In this document: piece after piece, positions 13,783 through 26,255 of the stretch
Layout of the letters: each line of letters begins with the position of its first letter
Numbering within the stretch: the stretch's first letter is position 1
Source of the DNA: an uncultured Pseudomonadota bacterium
GTDB lineage: Bacteria; Pseudomonadota; Gammaproteobacteria; Burkholderiales; CAIKXV01
NCBI GenBank assembly: GCA_903831455.1
Contig: CAIKXV010000008.1
Coordinates: forward strand, 1-54,356
Direction of reading: 5' to 3'
DNA: 54,356 bases
Made by a program: the position numbers and the translations under genes
The notes under the pieces: generated by a model
The model's database searches: none
What the model was told of the DNA's origin: nothing
Seen by the model: only the letters and a program-made list of their open reading frames with translations

Positions 13783-14826
13783 ATGAACGTCCCCAGACGC
13801 CTTCGCAGCACGTCCATGCGCACCCGCGGAGCGGGCCCAGGTCTCGCCGCAGCGGCCGTGCCCGCCACAGCGATCGTTTGCATGGCCGGGGCGTTCGCGC
13901 CGGCTGCCACCGCACAGTCGGCAGAGCCCTACCCGTCGCGGGTGGTGCGCCTGATCGTGCCGCGCGCGCCCGGTGGGCTGGTCGATGTCGTCGCGCGCGT
14001 CTATGCGCAGAACCTGGCCGAGCGACTCGGGCAGTCGGTGGTCGTCGACAACCGGCCCGGCGCTGGCGGCACCCTCGCCGGGGAGGCGGCAATGCGCGCC
14101 ACCCCGGATGGCCATACCCTGTTCGTCGCCACGCAGGACAGCCAGGTGCTCACGCCGCTGCTGCGTGCACGCCCGCCGTACGACGCGCTGCGCGACTTCA
14201 CGCAGATCTCGCTGCTGTTCACCACGCCCCTCTATCTCTTCGTGCATCCGTCGATACCCGCGCAGAACGTGAGGGAACTCGTGGCACTCGCCCGCGCGCG
14301 ACCCGGCAAGCTCACCTATGCATCGCTGGGCGTGGGCTCCACCCAGCATCTGGCGGCCGAGCTGTTCAAGAGCCGGCTTGGACTCGACATCGTGCACATC
14401 CCGTACAAGTCCACCTCGCAGGCGCTGGTCGAGCAGCAGACCGGACAGGTCGATCTGAACTTCACGGGCGGCACCAGCCATTTCCCGTTCGTCGCGACCG
14501 GCAAGCTGCGGGTGCTCGCCTCCACCGGACTCAAGCGCAGCCAGTTGCATCCCGGCGTACCGACGCTCGACGAGTCGGGCGTGCCGGGATTCGACATGGA
14601 GCCCTGGTACGGCCTGTCCGGACCCGCGCGGCTGCCGGCGGCGATCATCGCACGGCTCAACCGCGAGACCACCGCAATCCTGCAAATGCCCTCGGTCCGC
14701 GACCGTTTCGCCGCCGACGGGCTGGAGCCTCGTCCCACCACGCCGCCACAATTCGACGCGCGCATCCGCGCCGACCTTCCGCTGTGGTCGAAGACCATGC
14801 GCGAAGCCGGCTTCAAACCCGAGTAG
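13783..14826 (+). CDS. Bug/TctC-family solute receptor
   Basis: A 347-residue periplasmic receptor with a signal peptide ending APAATAQSAE. Signatures: VVRLIVPRAPGGLVDVVAR, DNRPGAGGTLAGE, ATPDGHTLF and IVHIPYKSTSQALVEQ. It is the second of two receptors in a row, 124 bases after the previous one, and the start at 13783 follows CAGGAG. The next gene is convergent, with a strong hairpin between them that should end this transcript. Confidence 0.92.
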   Translation: MNVPRRLRSTSMRTRGAGPGLAAAAVPATAIVCMAGAFAPAATAQSAEPYPSRVVRLIVPRAPGGLVDVVARVYAQNLAERLGQSVVVDNRPGAGGTLAGEAAMRATPDGHTLFVATQDSQVLTPLLRARPPYDALRDFTQISLLFTTPLYLFVHPSIPAQNVRELVALARARPGKLTYASLGVGSTQHLAAELFKSRLGLDIVHIPYKSTSQALVEQQTGQVDLNFTGGTSHFPFVATGKLRVLASTGLKRSQLHPGVPTLDESGVPGFDMEPWYGLSGPARLPAAIIARLNRETTAILQMPSVRDRFAADGLEPRPTTPPQFDARIRADLPLWSKTMREAGFKPE

Positions 14827-20097: not shown

Positions 20098-20117
20098 CAC
20101 CCCGCCGACGGCCAACC

Positions 20118-20129
20118 GCAGGCGCCTGC
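20118..20129. promoter_or_regulatory. 12-bp perfect palindrome between -35 and -10 regions of the peroxiredoxin gene
   Basis: GCAGGCGCCTGC reads identically on both strands and ends 6 bases before a TAGCAT hexamer (20136-20141) that would be the -10 of the peroxiredoxin promoter. Its position is that of a repressor operator. In such GC-rich DNA a chance palindrome is possible. Confidence 0.3.
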
Positions 20130-20185
20130 CTGCGCTAGCATGACCGGCGGTGCACTTTCGCACCGACCCTGGACAGGAGCCCAGC

Positions 20186-20647
20186 ATGGCTGCTCTGCAA
20201 CCCGGTGCCGCCGCACCGGACTTCACGCTCGCCGCGCACAGCGGCAGCTCGTTCAGCCTCGCGACCTACCGCGGGCGCAGGACCCTCGTCACCTTCCTTC
20301 CCTTCGCCTTCACCGGTGGATGAAAGAACCAGGTGAGCGGGTTCCGTGAGAACTACGCACAATTCCAGGCGCTGGGTGTCGAGATCCTGCAGATCAGCGC
20401 CGACCCCGTTCCCAGCCTCAAGGCCTGGGCGGACCAGTTGGGTGGCCTGCCGTTTCCCCTGCTGTCGGATTTCTGGCCGCACGGCGCCGTCGGCAAGGCC
20501 TATGGTGTGTTCAACGACGAGCGCGGCATGGACGCGCGCGCGGTGTTCCTGATCGACGCGGCCGGCGTGGTGAGTCACAGCCATGTGTACGCGCCGGGCA
20601 CCGTACCCGAGAGCGCCGACCTGCTGGCTCGCTTCGCGGCGATCTAG
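20186..20647 (+). CDS. Peroxiredoxin (AhpC/TSA, AhpE-like) with selenocysteine encoded by in-frame TGA
   Basis: Reads as one 153-residue peroxiredoxin through TGA at codon 46. The thioredoxin-fold N-terminus (PGAAAPDFTLAAHSG, FLPFAFTGG) runs up to the TGA, and the remainder (FRENYAQFQALGVEILQISAD, PFPLLSDFWPHG, ARAVFLID) continues in the same frame to TAG at 20645. The TGA falls exactly on the peroxidatic position of the conserved TxxC motif (T-G-G-U). No cysteine occurs elsewhere, so this would be a 1-Sec peroxiredoxin needing an external reductant. AGGAG at 20175-20179 sets the ATG. A stem-loop starts 11 bases after the TGA. Alternatives: a nonsense mutation or a TGC misread. Role: reduction of peroxides in the cytoplasm. 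Confidence 0.85.
20321..20323 (+). other. Recoded UGA (Sec) codon at the peroxidatic site
   Basis: The in-frame TGA is codon 46 of the peroxiredoxin. Reading frame, codon use and protein family similarity are continuous on both sides, and the codon replaces the single catalytic cysteine rather than a random residue. That coincidence is what favours selenocysteine over a random stop. Confidence 0.82.
20334..20361 (+). promoter_or_regulatory. Candidate bacterial SECIS hairpin
   Basis: Downstream of the UGA the RNA can pair bases 20334-20344 with 20350-20361. The upper stem is GGUUC/GAACU. A bulged A follows at 20355, then GCG/CGC, an A/A mismatch and UG/CA. The apical loop is CGUGA at 20345-20349, with a G in its first two bases. 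The loop begins 21 bases after the UGA, inside the range known for bacterial SECIS elements, and the element lies within the coding frame, as bacterial ones do. SelB recognition cannot be proven by eye. Confidence 0.6.
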
Positions 20648-20656
20648 CGGCACTCC

Positions 20657-20685
20657 GGTCCGGCCCGCAAGGGTCGGGCCGGACC
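20657..20685 (+). terminator. Terminator hairpin after the peroxiredoxin
   Basis: An 11-bp perfect stem, GGTCCGGCCCG at 20657-20667 with CGGGCCGGACC at 20675-20685 and a 7-base loop, begins 10 bases after the peroxiredoxin stop. No clear T-tract follows. It makes the peroxiredoxin a probable single-gene transcript. The remainder of the 242-base gap shows only a TATGAT -10-like hexamer (about 20834) before the next gene. Confidence 0.6.
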
Positions 20686-20889
20686 TCAGGGCGCCAGCCC
20701 TCCCAGCCGTACGCGCGCGCGGGGGCGGGTTGCGCACCGGCGCGAACTTCGTCGCGAAGGGTCTGCCGCCCTCCCGCGAGGCCGTCCCGGGGCCGGGCTG
20801 GCTGCGAGGCTCCCTCGCGCGCGGCGCTCGCCGTATGATCGGCCGTGGCGCGGGCATGCATGCGCCATGTCCGAAGGAGGAGCACGCCG

Positions 20890-21813: not shown

Positions 21814-22908
21814 TCAGTCCTGGCGCAGGTCGAGCGCGCGGGCCACGCGCCCCCAGCGCTCGATGTCGGCGCGGGTCTGAGCCGTGAACTCGGCCGGCGT
21901 CGAGAGCACCGGTTCGACCCCGAAGCCGGCAAGGTCGCCGCGTCCGGCCTCGGTGCCGAACCCGCGCACGAGTTCCGCGCGCACGCGCTCGACCACGGTC
22001 GAAGGCAGGCCCGCAGGACCGACCACGCCGTACCAGAAGACCGGATCGAAGCCCTTCAGGCCGGCATCGATCAGCGTGGGCACGCCCGGCAAGGCGGGCA
22101 GCGGACGGCTGACCGCGAGCGCGCGAACCTTGCCCGCCCGCACCAGCGAGGTGGAGGCGCCCGGATTGTCGAAGAACAGCGTGACCCGATCGGCCATCAG
22201 TTCGGGATAGACCGGTCCGGCTCCCTTGAACGGCACGTGGGTCATCCTGACCTTGAGTTCACCGAGCATCGCCTCGGTGATCAGGTGCCCCAGCGTGCCG
22301 GTGCCGGACGAGGCGTAGTTGAGCTTGCCCGACTGCGACCTCAACCAGTCGACTCCCTCGCGCAGGGTCTTCGCGGGGAAGTTCGCCGGCGCGAGCAGCA
22401 GATAGGGCGCGTTGCCCACGATGGTGATGTGGGTGAAATCGCGCTGGGCATCGAAGCGCGGTTTCGCCAGCAGCAGCGGCGCGACCGCATGCGTGCTGGT
22501 GGTGACCGTGGCCAGCGTGTAGCCGTCGGGCGTGGCGCGGGCGACGAGTTCGCCGGCGATGGCGCCGCTGGCCCCGGGCCGGTTGTCGACGATGACCGGC
22601 TGCCCCAGGCCGTCGGACAGGCGCATCGCGCTCGCGCGCGCCATGAGGTCGGTCGTCCCGCCGGGCGGCAGCCCGACCAGCATGCGGACCGGCCGCTGTG
22701 GCCATGCCGCCGGACCCTGTGCCGCAGCCGGCGCGATCGGTTGCGCGACCACTGCAAGCACCGCGGCCACCCCGGCCGCCACGTGGCTGCGGCCGGCGCG
22801 TCCGCGCGTGGAAGGCATCCCCTCCCTCGTGCCGATCCGCTCGCGCAGCCGGGTCGCATCCACGCCACGCCACCCGTTGCGGTTACCCATTCGTCGTGCC
22901 GCGTTCAT
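21814..22908 (-). CDS. Bug/TctC-family solute receptor
   Basis: A 364-residue receptor whose ATG overlaps the upstream aldolase stop in a 4-base ATGA. The N-terminus is about 65 residues long before QGPAAWPQRPVRML; the hydrophobic core is AAGVAAVLAVVAQPIAPAAAQ. A later in-frame ATG at 22890 would shorten the polar lead, but coupling favours 22908. Signatures: RMLVGLPPGGTTDLMAR, DNRPGASGAIAGE, ATPDGYTL and MTHVPFKGAGPVYPEL. It is co-translated with the class II aldolase-family gene, mirroring the pair at 1563-3467. Confidence 0.92.
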   Translation of the reverse strand: MNAARRMGNRNGWRGVDATRLRERIGTREGMPSTRGRAGRSHVAAGVAAVLAVVAQPIAPAAAQGPAAWPQRPVRMLVGLPPGGTTDLMARASAMRLSDGLGQPVIVDNRPGASGAIAGELVARATPDGYTLATVTTSTHAVAPLLLAKPRFDAQRDFTHITIVGNAPYLLLAPANFPAKTLREGVDWLRSQSGKLNYASSGTGTLGHLITEAMLGELKVRMTHVPFKGAGPVYPELMADRVTLFFDNPGASTSLVRAGKVRALAVSRPLPALPGVPTLIDAGLKGFDPVFWYGVVGPAGLPSTVVERVRAELVRGFGTEAGRGDLAGFGVEPVLSTPAEFTAQTRADIERWGRVARALDLRQD

Positions 22909-23669
22909 TGTGCGCCCCCCCGCTTCGCTTCCGGATACACCACCGCGTCGCCCCGCTCGAACATCCACTGCATGTCCGCGCGCGACAGGTACTCCGCACG
23001 CGTGCCGCGCACGGCGCTCAAGGTCTCGACGATGATGTTGCGCTTCACCTCGGAGACCAGCACGTTCGTGCGGTGGTAGGCCTCGGAGACCGTGCGGCCC
23101 AGCACCGTGAACCCGTGGCGGCGCATGATCACGCAGTTCGTGTCCTGGATGAAGGTCTTGATCGGATCGACATCCTCCTCGACGTTGAGGTGCGCCGGGA
23201 GGTAGTGCGCCGGTTTCTGCATCAGGTAGGAGAAGGTGAGCGAGGTCGAGCGGATCTCCTCGAACCCGGCGGCGAGGAAGGCGATGGTCTCGTCGTGGTG
23301 CAGGTGGATCACGCAGCCCACGTCCGGTCTCAGGCGAAGGATCTCGCGGTTCATCTGGTGGCCCACCGTGGTCGCGCGATCGCCGTGCAGCAGTTCGCCG
23401 TGGGGCACGTCGGTGATCACCAGGTCGTCGACGCACGCCTCCTCCAGCGACAGGCCCTGGGGCTTCACGTAGCACAGGCCCTCGGGATACTTCGGGTGGG
23501 GCACCCGGATCACCATGTTGCCCAGCGAACTCTGCACGTAGCCGCGCTGGTTGAGCATCTGCGCGTACCGGATGTAGGTCTCCCCGACCGAGCGGTCGAA
23601 CACGACATCGGGATCGGGGGCCACCCGGTTGAGTCGGCTGCCGGCGATGCCGGGCGTCGGTGTATCCAC
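22905..23669 (-). CDS. Class II aldolase/adducin-family protein
   Basis: A 254-residue zinc-dependent protein. Metal ligands are His122 and His124 in CVIHLHHDE and His185 in MRRHGFTVLG. GNMVIRVPHPKYPEG near residue 50 corresponds to the conserved serine/glycine substrate loop. The start is GTG at 23669, preceded by AGGAG; no ATG fits. It differs considerably from the aldolase at 1563, so the two are not a recent duplication. The overlap with the downstream receptor implies the enzyme acts on the compound that the receptor binds (inference). Confidence 0.87.
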   Translation of the reverse strand: MDTPTPGIAGSRLNRVAPDPDVVFDRSVGETYIRYAQMLNQRGYVQSSLGNMVIRVPHPKYPEGLCYVKPQGLSLEEACVDDLVITDVPHGELLHGDRATTVGHQMNREILRLRPDVGCVIHLHHDETIAFLAAGFEEIRSTSLTFSYLMQKPAHYLPAHLNVEEDVDPIKTFIQDTNCVIMRRHGFTVLGRTVSEAYHRTNVLVSEVKRNIIVETLSAVRGTRAEYLSRADMQWMFERGDAVVYPEAKRGGAQ

Positions 23670-23808
23670 GATGCGGCGCTCCTGGGGGATCGGTGCCGGC
23701 AACGATACCGCGCCCGGGGGGCGGCACGCCACCGGGCGCAGGAACGGGCCCCGCGGCCGCGCACGCGACGCCGACGTCGCGCGGCCCGGCGCGCCGATCA
23801 GGCCAGCC

Positions 23809-23849
23809 CGCGGGGAGATCTCGGGTTGTCCCCGCGCCGCAGGTGCGGC
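23809..23849 (-). terminator. Two hairpins just after the PLP-enzyme gene
   Basis: In the minus direction, GCCGCA/TGCGGC with a 2-base loop (23836-23849) begins 5 bases after the PLP-enzyme stop. It is followed by CGCGGGG/CCCCGCG (23809-23815 with 23830-23836). They share one base and would be alternatives or nearly stacked. They likely end that transcript before the aldolase gene. Confidence 0.45.
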
Positions 23850-23854
23850 GTGCG

Positions 23855-24985
23855 TCACCAGCCGCCGAAGCGGGGCCAGCGATCGACCACGGCAGCATCC
23901 TCGATCACGTGGTACGCATCGAACTGCGCCGCGGTCGCGCACGCATGGTTGGGCAGGATCCGCACCCGGCTGCCGATCGGCAGCTGCTGCGCGAGCTCCG
24001 GCAGGCAGCTGCCGTCGCGGCGGGCGATGATGCCGTGCTCCTGGTTGGCCGCGCGCATGATGAGCCCCGGCATCGGCTGGCCCTCCGGCTCGCAGACCAG
24101 GCCGTAGCCCTGGTCCACCCGCTGCGAAGCGGTGCCTCGGTCCCGGCTCATCGCCATCCAGCCCGCATCCACGATCACCCAGCCCCGATCGGCCCGGTGT
24201 CCGATCACGGTGGCGAGCACCGAGAGCGCGATGTCCTCGACCGAGCACACCCCGATGCCGGCCATCACCAGGTCGAAGAACACGTAGACGCCGGCCCGCA
24301 CCTCGGTCACTCCGCGCAGATCGGTCGCCGACAGCGCGGTGGGCGTGGATCCCACGCTGACGCGCTCGCATGGCAGACCCGCCTCGCGCAGCGTGCGAGC
24401 GCACCGGAGGACCGCATCGCGCTCCTGCACCGCCATCGCGGCGAGCGCCTCCGGCGTGTCGAGGTCGTATGAACTGCCGGCGTGGGTCATCACGCCCGCG
24501 AGCAGGCCCGCCTCGGCGAGGCGCCGGCCGATCGCCACCAGCAGCGGGTCGCCCGGACGAACCCCGGAGCGATGGCCGTCGCTGTCGATCTCGACCAGCA
24601 CCGGCATCGGGGTGCCGGCCTCCGCGCAGGCGACCGCCAGCGCATCGGCCACCGCCAGCGAGTCGACGACCACCGACAACTCGCAGCCCTGCGCGCGCAG
24701 CGCGAGCGCCTGCCCGATGCGCCCGGGCGCGAGCGCCACCGCGTACAGGATGTCGCGGATGCCGCCGGCGTGGAACCGGGCCGCCTCCTTGAGCGTGGAC
24801 ACGGTGATCGACTGCGCGCCGGCCGCGAACTGCGCCTGCACCACGGGCAGGCATTTGCTCGTCTTCGCGTGCGGGCGCAAGCGGCAGCCGAGGCGATCGA
24901 CCTGCCCCTGCATGCGCGCGATATTGGCAGCCATGCGGGGGCGATCGAGCAGCAGCGCGGGTGTTTCGAGGGCATCGAGATGCAT
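23855..24985 (-). CDS. PLP-dependent D-threonine aldolase / D-serine dehydratase-like protein (alanine racemase fold)
   Basis: A 376-residue fold-type III PLP enzyme. Lys41 in RPHAKTSK is the Schiff-base lysine. The C-terminal metal site LPNHACAT provides His347 and Cys349, as in DSD1-type D-serine dehydratases and metal-activated D-threonine aldolases. TPALLLDRPRMAANIARMQ starts the barrel, and GVYVFFDLVMAGIGVC is typical of the group. It would split or deaminate a D-hydroxy-amino acid using PLP and Zn2+ or Mn2+. No strong Shine-Dalgarno is visible at 24985. It is divergent from the Bug receptor at 25176. Confidence 0.9.
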   Translation of the reverse strand: MHLDALETPALLLDRPRMAANIARMQGQVDRLGCRLRPHAKTSKCLPVVQAQFAAGAQSITVSTLKEAARFHAGGIRDILYAVALAPGRIGQALALRAQGCELSVVVDSLAVADALAVACAEAGTPMPVLVEIDSDGHRSGVRPGDPLLVAIGRRLAEAGLLAGVMTHAGSSYDLDTPEALAAMAVQERDAVLRCARTLREAGLPCERVSVGSTPTALSATDLRGVTEVRAGVYVFFDLVMAGIGVCSVEDIALSVLATVIGHRADRGWVIVDAGWMAMSRDRGTASQRVDQGYGLVCEPEGQPMPGLIMRAANQEHGIIARRDGSCLPELAQQLPIGSRVRILPNHACATAAQFDAYHVIEDAAVVDRWPRFGGW

Positions 24986-25175
24986 CGCGTGGCGTCCGGA
25001 ATGCGGGAGCCCCGATGATGCCTGTGGTCGCGCCGCGATGCGGATCGGACACGGGCCCCTCGTTGACGAGCGCCGGCGAGGCCGCCACCATCGCCTTCGC
25101 GGCGCACGCCCGACCCGTTCCGATCCTCAGGTCGGCGGGGACGGGCACCCGGCGCCAGGCACCGGAGGAGACCTC

Positions 25176-26255
25176 GTGCAGACGATGACCATCCCCAGCG
25201 CATCGGCCGCGCCCGTCCGGCGGCGGGAAACCGCTCGACTGCGCCGGGACTCGCGCGGCCGGACGGGGTGCGCAGCGCCTCGCCCCGCGCAGGTGGGCCG
25301 TGCACTCGCGCTGGCGGGCCTTGCCCTGTTCATGCAGGCTGCGGCGGTCGTCGCCCAGGCCTGGCCCGCGCGACCGGTGCGGGTGATCATCCCGTGGGCA
25401 CCCGGGGGCTCGAACGACGGCGTCGGACGCATCGTGTTCCAGCGCATCGCCGAACAGTACTCGCAGCCCTTCGTCGTCGAGAACCGTGGCGGCGCGGCCG
25501 GCACGCTGGGCGCGGCCGTGGTCGCCCGCGCGCCCGCCGACGGCCACACCCTGATGGTCCACTCCGCCTCGCACGTGGGCAACGCGCATCTGTACAAGTC
25601 GCTGCCCTACGACACGCTCAAGGATTTCACCGGCATCGCGAATCTCGCCTCGCAACCGGGCGTCCTCGTGGTGCACCCCTCGTTTCCGGCGAAGAGCCTG
25701 CAGGACTTCCTGCGACTGGCGAAGGCCCGGCCCAGGGAGATCCAGTACGCCACCCCTGGCAACGGCAGCGCCCCGCACCTGTTCATGGCGATGCTCACCT
25801 CGATGACCGGCGTGGACCTTCAGCACATTCCGTACAAGGGCGGCCCCCAGTCGACCACCTCGGTGCTCCAGGGCGAGACCCAGGCCACGTTCTCGACGCT
25901 GCCCAACGCGCTCGCGCACGTGCAGAGCGGACGACTGCGCCCGCTGGCGGTCTCCACGCCGCAGCGACTCGGGGTCCTGCCCAGGGTGCCCACGGTCGCC
26001 GAGGCGGGCGTGCCCGCGTACGAGTGGAACCCCTGGATCGGCGTGCTCGCGCCTGCCGGCACGCCCCGCGAGGTAGGCGAGCGGTTGCACGCGGACGTGC
26101 AGCAGGTGCTGGGCCGGGAGGAGACCCGCCGCGGCTTCGAGGCGCTGGGCGTGGAGCCCATCGGCGAGAGCCAGGACGCGTTCCGCACGCGCATCGCGCG
26201 CGACTTCGAACGCTACCGCAAGCTCTACTCGCTGATCGAGATCCGCATCGAATGA
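25176..26255 (+). CDS. Bug/TctC-family solute receptor
   Basis: A 359-residue receptor. GTG at 25176 is chosen because GGAGGAG lies 5 bases upstream; an ATG 9 bases later is the alternative. A polar arginine-rich lead of about 45 residues precedes the hydrophobic ALALAGLALFMQAAAVVAQ signal core. Signatures: RVIIPWAPGGSNDGVGR, ENRGGAAGTLGAAV, APADGHTLM and LQHIPYKGGPQSTTSV. It is followed after 76 bases by a large alpha/beta hydrolase on the same strand, probably an operon. Confidence 0.9.
   Translation: MQTMTIPSASAAPVRRRETARLRRDSRGRTGCAAPRPAQVGRALALAGLALFMQAAAVVAQAWPARPVRVIIPWAPGGSNDGVGRIVFQRIAEQYSQPFVVENRGGAAGTLGAAVVARAPADGHTLMVHSASHVGNAHLYKSLPYDTLKDFTGIANLASQPGVLVVHPSFPAKSLQDFLRLAKARPREIQYATPGNGSAPHLFMAMLTSMTGVDLQHIPYKGGPQSTTSVLQGETQATFSTLPNALAHVQSGRLRPLAVSTPQRLGVLPRVPTVAEAGVPAYEWNPWIGVLAPAGTPREVGERLHADVQQVLGREETRRGFEALGVEPIGESQDAFRTRIARDFERYRKLYSLIEIRIE

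Follow-up and report, generated by a model that had tools for sequence, protein, structure and literature searches.

A predicted selenocysteine-containing AhpE-like peroxiredoxin in uncultured Burkholderiales bacteria

Peroxiredoxin frame with an in-frame TGA

The window is a 54,356-nt stretch of DNA (contig CAIKXV010000008.1) from the genome of an uncultured bacterium of the order Burkholderiales. It contains a peroxiredoxin-like frame interrupted by a single TGA, and this raises the question of whether the codon terminates the gene or is read as selenocysteine (Sec). The features concerned are:

20175..20179, + strand: AGGAG, a Shine–Dalgarno-like sequence 6 nt before the ATG, recognised by eye
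20186..20647, + strand: predicted Sec-containing AhpE-like peroxiredoxin (1-Sec), with an ATG start, a TAG stop and 153 aa when UGA is read as Sec
20321..20323, + strand: in-frame TGA, codon 46, at the peroxidatic position of PxxxTxxU, seen in the sequence and present in all 38 distinct coding sequences
20333..20647, + strand: GTG ORF of 104 aa given by plain ORF calling, an artefact of taking the TGA as a stop

The TGA at 20321–20323 is the sole internal stop of the frame at 20186–20647. The motif around it is PFAFTGGU, which corresponds to PxxxTxxU, and the 153-aa protein lacks any Cys residue. The match to the PF00578 (AhpC-TSA) profile (117.8 bits, cut-off 26) runs in one unbroken stretch, aligning residues 7–131 of the protein with positions 2–123 of the 124 in the profile. 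PF00578 is found at nine places in the genome, and an internal stop is present only in the copy at 20186–20647. These results confirm a sequence-only reading of the locus, which had described a peroxiredoxin frame with one TGA at the position of the catalytic Cys, no other Cys and a similarity that continues unshifted across the TGA. That reading had also predicted that annotation would yield a C-terminal fragment starting near the GTG at 20333, and a plain ORF caller does report 20333–20647. Since such calling yields a truncated fragment, Sec peroxiredoxin genes are easily missed.

Elsewhere in the window, at 14092–14826, 22704–26255 and other places, the translations read as tripartite tricarboxylate transporter substrate-binding-like proteins.

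Protein family and predicted fold

The closest PDB entries by sequence are all M. tuberculosis AhpE (120 bits); the next other protein scores 64.6. The AlphaFold2 model of the protein has a pLDDT of 94.1 and a pTM of 0.90, and the first 12 matches in a Foldseek comparison with the PDB are likewise all M. tuberculosis AhpE (TM 0.93–0.95, 40–41% identity). In 19 aligned rows, position 46 (Sec or Cys) and R118 are invariant, and P39 and T43 are nearly invariant. The best NCBIfam match is NF040737 (PrxU), at 89.7 bits; this is far below the curated cut-off of 270, and assignment as a PrxU equivalog was rejected. Because AhpE is the best match in both sequence and fold and the PrxU model stays under its cut-off, the comparisons support a predicted AhpE-like 1-Sec peroxiredoxin and not a PrxU equivalog, which fits the ‘AhpE-like 1-Sec’ form named in the sequence-only reading. 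In the aligned part of the 38 distinct coding sequences, another Cys is absent from 23, 14 have one and one has two, so that the absence of a further Cys is not universal.

Conservation of the TGA among relatives

TGA occupies codon 46 in 38 of 38 distinct coding sequences, the window's own included (47 loci, 41–99% identity); the loci were chosen by match strength, and the statement ‘all TGA’ applies to these sets. The recurrence agrees with the earlier contention that the position of the TGA is not a matter of chance, and in the translations examined the close relatives share this TGA and are free of further internal stops. In a search of 60 related genomes, every match at E 3e-25 or better contains a single TGA; these strong matches come from nine of the 11 genomes of the genus, again including the window's own, and from two genomes of other families. 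Weaker matches in these 60 genomes, for example L030 (41%), are Cys proteins. A scan of the genome_contigs set yielded 29 loci, with TGA at the column in 22 and TGC or TGT in seven (32–37% identity).

A draw of 399 genomes from the order contains the gene in 26 genomes; at a threshold of E 1e-22 these give 27 matches, of which 26 have the TGA. The 27th, L092, begins past the TGA codon at a contig end; it and L095, which has the TGA, are two contig-end pieces in genome G138 that lie outside the set of 38. The TGA is likewise present in all 33 distinct coding sequences of the core, which represent three or more families of the order. In a draw of 398 genomes from the phylum, two have a match at 1e-20: the window's own and G164, the latter with a Cys protein.

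Within the genus, the G007 copy is truncated at the end of a contig. G004 (84% complete) has tRNA-Sec, and the gene was not found there at E 1e-22; neither the gene nor tRNA-Sec was found in G008 (83% complete). Contamination is an unlikely source of the gene, since nine of the 11 genus genomes have it. Two public bins titled Bordetella parapertussis (L052, L068) also carry it; they look mislabelled, because their copies group with environmental betaproteobacterial bins.

Six flanking regions were compared. The genus loci L108 and L109 share M16-peptidase-like and alpha/beta-hydrolase-like genes with the window, and the ornithine-cyclodeaminase-like gene of the window is also found in the flank of one of the two (names from translations). 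None of these three neighbours occurs in the four flanks from other families. The gene neighbourhood was set aside as a clue to the reductant.

RNA constraint downstream of the TGA

Two features inside the coding sequence lie at the distance from the UGA at which a bacterial SECIS element would be expected:

20337..20358, + strand: predicted SECIS hairpin with an 8-bp stem, one bulged A and the loop CGUGA at 20345–20349 (MFE −7.9 kcal/mol)
20339..20365, + strand: SECIS region, codons 52–60, with near-frozen synonymous sites in 33 coding sequences

The weightiest evidence for a SECIS element is the freeze of synonymous sites rather than the fold energy. In the 33 coding sequences (>60% identity), the mean synonymous difference is 0.016 for codons 52–60 and 0.41 over 141 codons. 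This stretch, 16–42 nt after the TGA, has the lowest value of all nine-codon windows, and within codons 52–56 there are zero differences between sequences sharing the amino acid. The GGG and CGT codons in the frozen stretch are fixed in 33 of 33 sequences, and neither is a favoured codon: in six genes of the window, GGG accounts for 33 of 173 Gly codons and CGT for 12 of 207 Arg codons. Since the freeze extends to non-favoured codons, it points to a constraint at the RNA level 16–42 nt after the UGA, a hallmark of SECIS elements.

The available passages of PMC13188914 describe bSECIS elements as having a loop of 3–9 nt, an upper stem of 4–16 bp, a distance of 16–37 nt from the UGA, a G in the first two loop positions and an MFE of at most −7.5. 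Checked by hand, the hairpin at 20337–20358 falls within all these bounds, with G second in the loop CGUGA, 8 bp, a loop 21 nt after the UGA and −7.9 kcal/mol. The sequence-only reading had claimed a good stem-loop at SECIS distance, a claim that holds only in part. For 20335–20360 the fold energy has a modest z of −1.63, with 14 of 200 shuffles as good, whereas the fold is no better than shuffles for the 50 nt from the TGA (z −0.43) or for 20339–20365 (z −0.03). Several 45-nt folds of relatives are weaker than −7.5 (L027, −6.9; L084, −4.5), and the short hairpin is the minimum-energy fold in nine of 17 core sequences, the other eight folding otherwise. For the first 45 nt downstream of codon 46, the mean z is −0.51 in 36 Sec homologues and −0.44 in 16 Cys homologues (p 0.49). 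With the 50-nt fold not significant and Sec and Cys homologues alike, folding energy was dropped as proof of a SECIS element. An Rfam search gave no match in 20100–20750 at E up to 5, and none in the window at the gathering threshold.

Two pairings were considered for this region. The inner five pairs of the short hairpin are kept in 100 of 100 cells (20 distinct rows), and four of them are invariant. RNAalifold favours another pairing, of columns 34–38 with 56–60 and 40–43 with 49–52, which is kept in 98.9% of cells and is broken in L061 and once at 38–56. Within the clade, covariation in the form of a both-sided change was found in neither pairing. In L093, L094 and L126, the loop CGUGC is carried on a seven-pair stem of different sequence (45-nt folds; the 54-nt fold of L094 differs), and because of this recurrence the short hairpin is favoured over the RNAalifold pairing.

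Selenocysteine machinery and the reading of codon 46

A search of the same genome for selA, selB, selC (tRNA-Sec) and selD, put forward in the sequence-only reading as a check, found all four. The tRNA-Sec is located on contig C282 (79 bits; anticodon tca according to ARAGORN), just after SelB (TIGR00475, 434.9 bits against a cut-off of 242.25); SelA is on contig C223 (574.9 bits). SelD (415.6 bits; L078, G000:C142:18877-19818) has an in-frame TGA of its own, in GGG-U-GCK. Among the fdh genes near SelB and tRNA-Sec, one matches the Form-deh_trans and Fe-S domains, and a frame near SelB, read by eye as FdhA, has an in-frame TGA in ARI-U-HAPT. The TGA positions in the frames read as FdhA and SelD are presumably Sec sites. 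As SelD itself has an in-frame TGA, the genome seems to possess at least three or four selenoprotein genes.

Within the 399 genomes drawn from the order, tRNA-Sec was found in 26 of the 26 that carry the gene, compared with 80 of the 373 that do not (Fisher p 8.7e-17, kinship ignored); here the two draws of 399 genomes, one for the gene and one for tRNA-Sec, were taken as the same set, their size and handles being in agreement. Four of four further carriers tested, one of them from Chloroflexota, also have tRNA-Sec.

The gene very probably encodes an AhpE-like 1-Sec peroxiredoxin in which the UGA of codon 46 is decoded as Sec via SelB, tRNA-Sec and a SECIS element in the coding sequence. Translation would proceed through codon 46 with the aid of the SECIS hairpin 14–35 nt downstream. 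A suppressor tRNA that inserts an amino acid other than Sec (Trp or Cys) at the UGA is very unlikely: no specific point speaks for it, and it is opposed by the presence of SelB and tRNA-Sec, by the TGA at the assumed Sec sites of the frames read as FdhA and SelD, by the location of the codon at the catalytic position and by the RNA constraint at SECIS distance. It is extremely unlikely that the gene is a pseudogene in which a chance nonsense mutation struck an ordinary Cys peroxiredoxin. The TGA is one base from TGC and TGT, and a plain reading gives a truncated ORF; however, the same codon recurs throughout the 38 distinct coding sequences at 41–99% identity, the window frame has no further internal stop, the protein is conserved on either side of the TGA and tRNA-Sec accompanies the gene in all 26 carriers. 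A programmed stop followed by a new start at GTG 20333, by which the frozen stretch would serve the initiation of a separate 104-aa product, can practically be dismissed: the GTG of the window does start 10 nt after the TGA, but codon 50 is not conserved as a start codon (GTC in 20, GTG in eight, GTA in four and GTT in one of 33), and the conservation of the upstream protein and the link with tRNA-Sec would be left unexplained.

Sec and Cys forms in wider relatives

In wider relatives, U and C alternate at the TGA column, an alternation that the sequence-only reading had suggested looking for. Among 25 Chloroflexota loci fetched (L119–L143), 15 have U and 10 have C (TGC or TGT) at this column. 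AhpE-like matches at 1e-20 were found in 98 of 301 Chloroflexota genomes, including Cys forms with up to 48% identity to the window protein. On a tree of 52 rows (33 Sec), the Sec/Cys label needs five changes; two sufficed on a previous tree with fewer relatives (53 rows, 25 Sec), and L106 is in neither tree. Because the label needs five changes on the 52-row tree, Sec and Cys have replaced each other in the wider AhpE-like group. The 14 core rows of that tree form a Sec-only group (support 100/99). Nearest to the core are L093 and L094, from the same order, and L126 and L143, from Chloroflexota, with weak support for the fork (80/81); transfer between Chloroflexota and Burkholderiales, in either direction, is plausible.

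Two more distant peroxiredoxin paralogues, from other families of the order, carry one TGA each: L105 (G015:C13:112459-112917) and L106 (G055:C2:139785-140249). Their motifs at the TGA are AFTNA-U and AFTDT-U, respectively. By eye, both frames start with a signal-like hydrophobic stretch, and their products are for this reason perhaps periplasmic Sec peroxiredoxins.

Proposed catalysis and a candidate partner

The selenolate of Sec46, placed in the usual peroxiredoxin pocket (P39, T43, R118), would attack peroxide and be converted to a selenenic acid. Since the protein has no resolving Cys, an outside thiol would be needed as the reductant; the selenenic acid may be reduced by glutathione with glutaredoxin, or by thioredoxin. 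Five places in the genome match PF00462 (glutaredoxin). One further frame deserves mention:

G000:C223 2158-2931, + strand: candidate Sec-glutaredoxin–DinB_2 fusion (L146), with PF00462 and DinB_2 matches and an in-frame TGA

The TGA in L146 replaces the first Cys of the glutaredoxin CxxC (KPG-U-TSC), and the frame ends about 50 nt upstream of the selA match (C223:2987-4348). The homologues examined, on Caballeronia and Variovorax plasmids (two among 14 matching records), have Cys at the place of the TGA, as CSSC. A hairpin of seven pairs with a GUU loop, the loop lying 23 nt after the TGA, has a z of −0.22, too weak to serve as proof. L146 is a candidate selenoprotein, possibly the second redox one of this genome and possibly a partner of the peroxiredoxin. 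A peroxide relay from Se to Se, with the 1-Sec AhpE-like protein reduced by the UxxC glutaredoxin–DinB protein, in a clade passed between Chloroflexota and Burkholderiales, is a speculative extension and, as a whole, unlikely.

Comparison with known systems

According to the available passages of selenoproteome surveys, Sec peroxiredoxins are an established family, termed ‘Prx, TxxU’ (PMC1794560, PMC2398784, PMC5029168, PMC9312934, PMC13188914). The motif PxxxTxxU and the Pfam family given in these passages are common to the window protein, and an AhpE-like clade is not split off there. The counts of TxxU peroxiredoxins that they give are 12 in a 2006 table, 253 GOS sequences in 2008 and 91 proteins from 78 organisms in 2016. 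In 2006, fdhA was described as the only selenoprotein gene of the Sec-decoding Betaproteobacteria then known (PMC1794560). Among the papers listed by literature searches, which covered few subscription papers and no bioRxiv preprints, neither an earlier report of an AhpE-like Sec clade in Burkholderiales or Betaproteobacteria nor on-topic literature on a glutaredoxin–DinB selenoprotein was found.

Since selenium peroxiredoxins are an established family, the AhpE-like Sec gene is an addition to it, a betaproteobacterial branch of an already known kind of selenoenzyme. A genus of uncultured bacteria, with relatives titled Betaproteobacteria or Burkholderiales, would thereby have a Sec peroxiredoxin on top of fdhA. 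With Sec as the only chalcogen catalytic residue and Cys forms in wider relatives, the protein offers a clean system for studying why Sec is kept, as well as how peroxiredoxins of the 1-Sec type are reduced.

M. tuberculosis AhpE, a 1-Cys peroxiredoxin (PDB 1xxu, 4x0x, 5id2), resembles the window protein in its single catalytic residue, sequence and fold. It differs in having a catalytic Cys where the window protein has Sec. AhpE of M. tuberculosis is also linked to mycothiol, as the title of entry 5id2 hints, and such a link is not expected in the window protein. The PrxU of Peptoclostridium (Eubacterium) acidaminophilum is a Sec peroxiredoxin reportedly described in 2001. It is of the PF00578 type, and its TGA falls in the same column of the alignment (L145); its identity to the window protein is 39%, and the window protein is nearer to AhpE in both sequence and fold.
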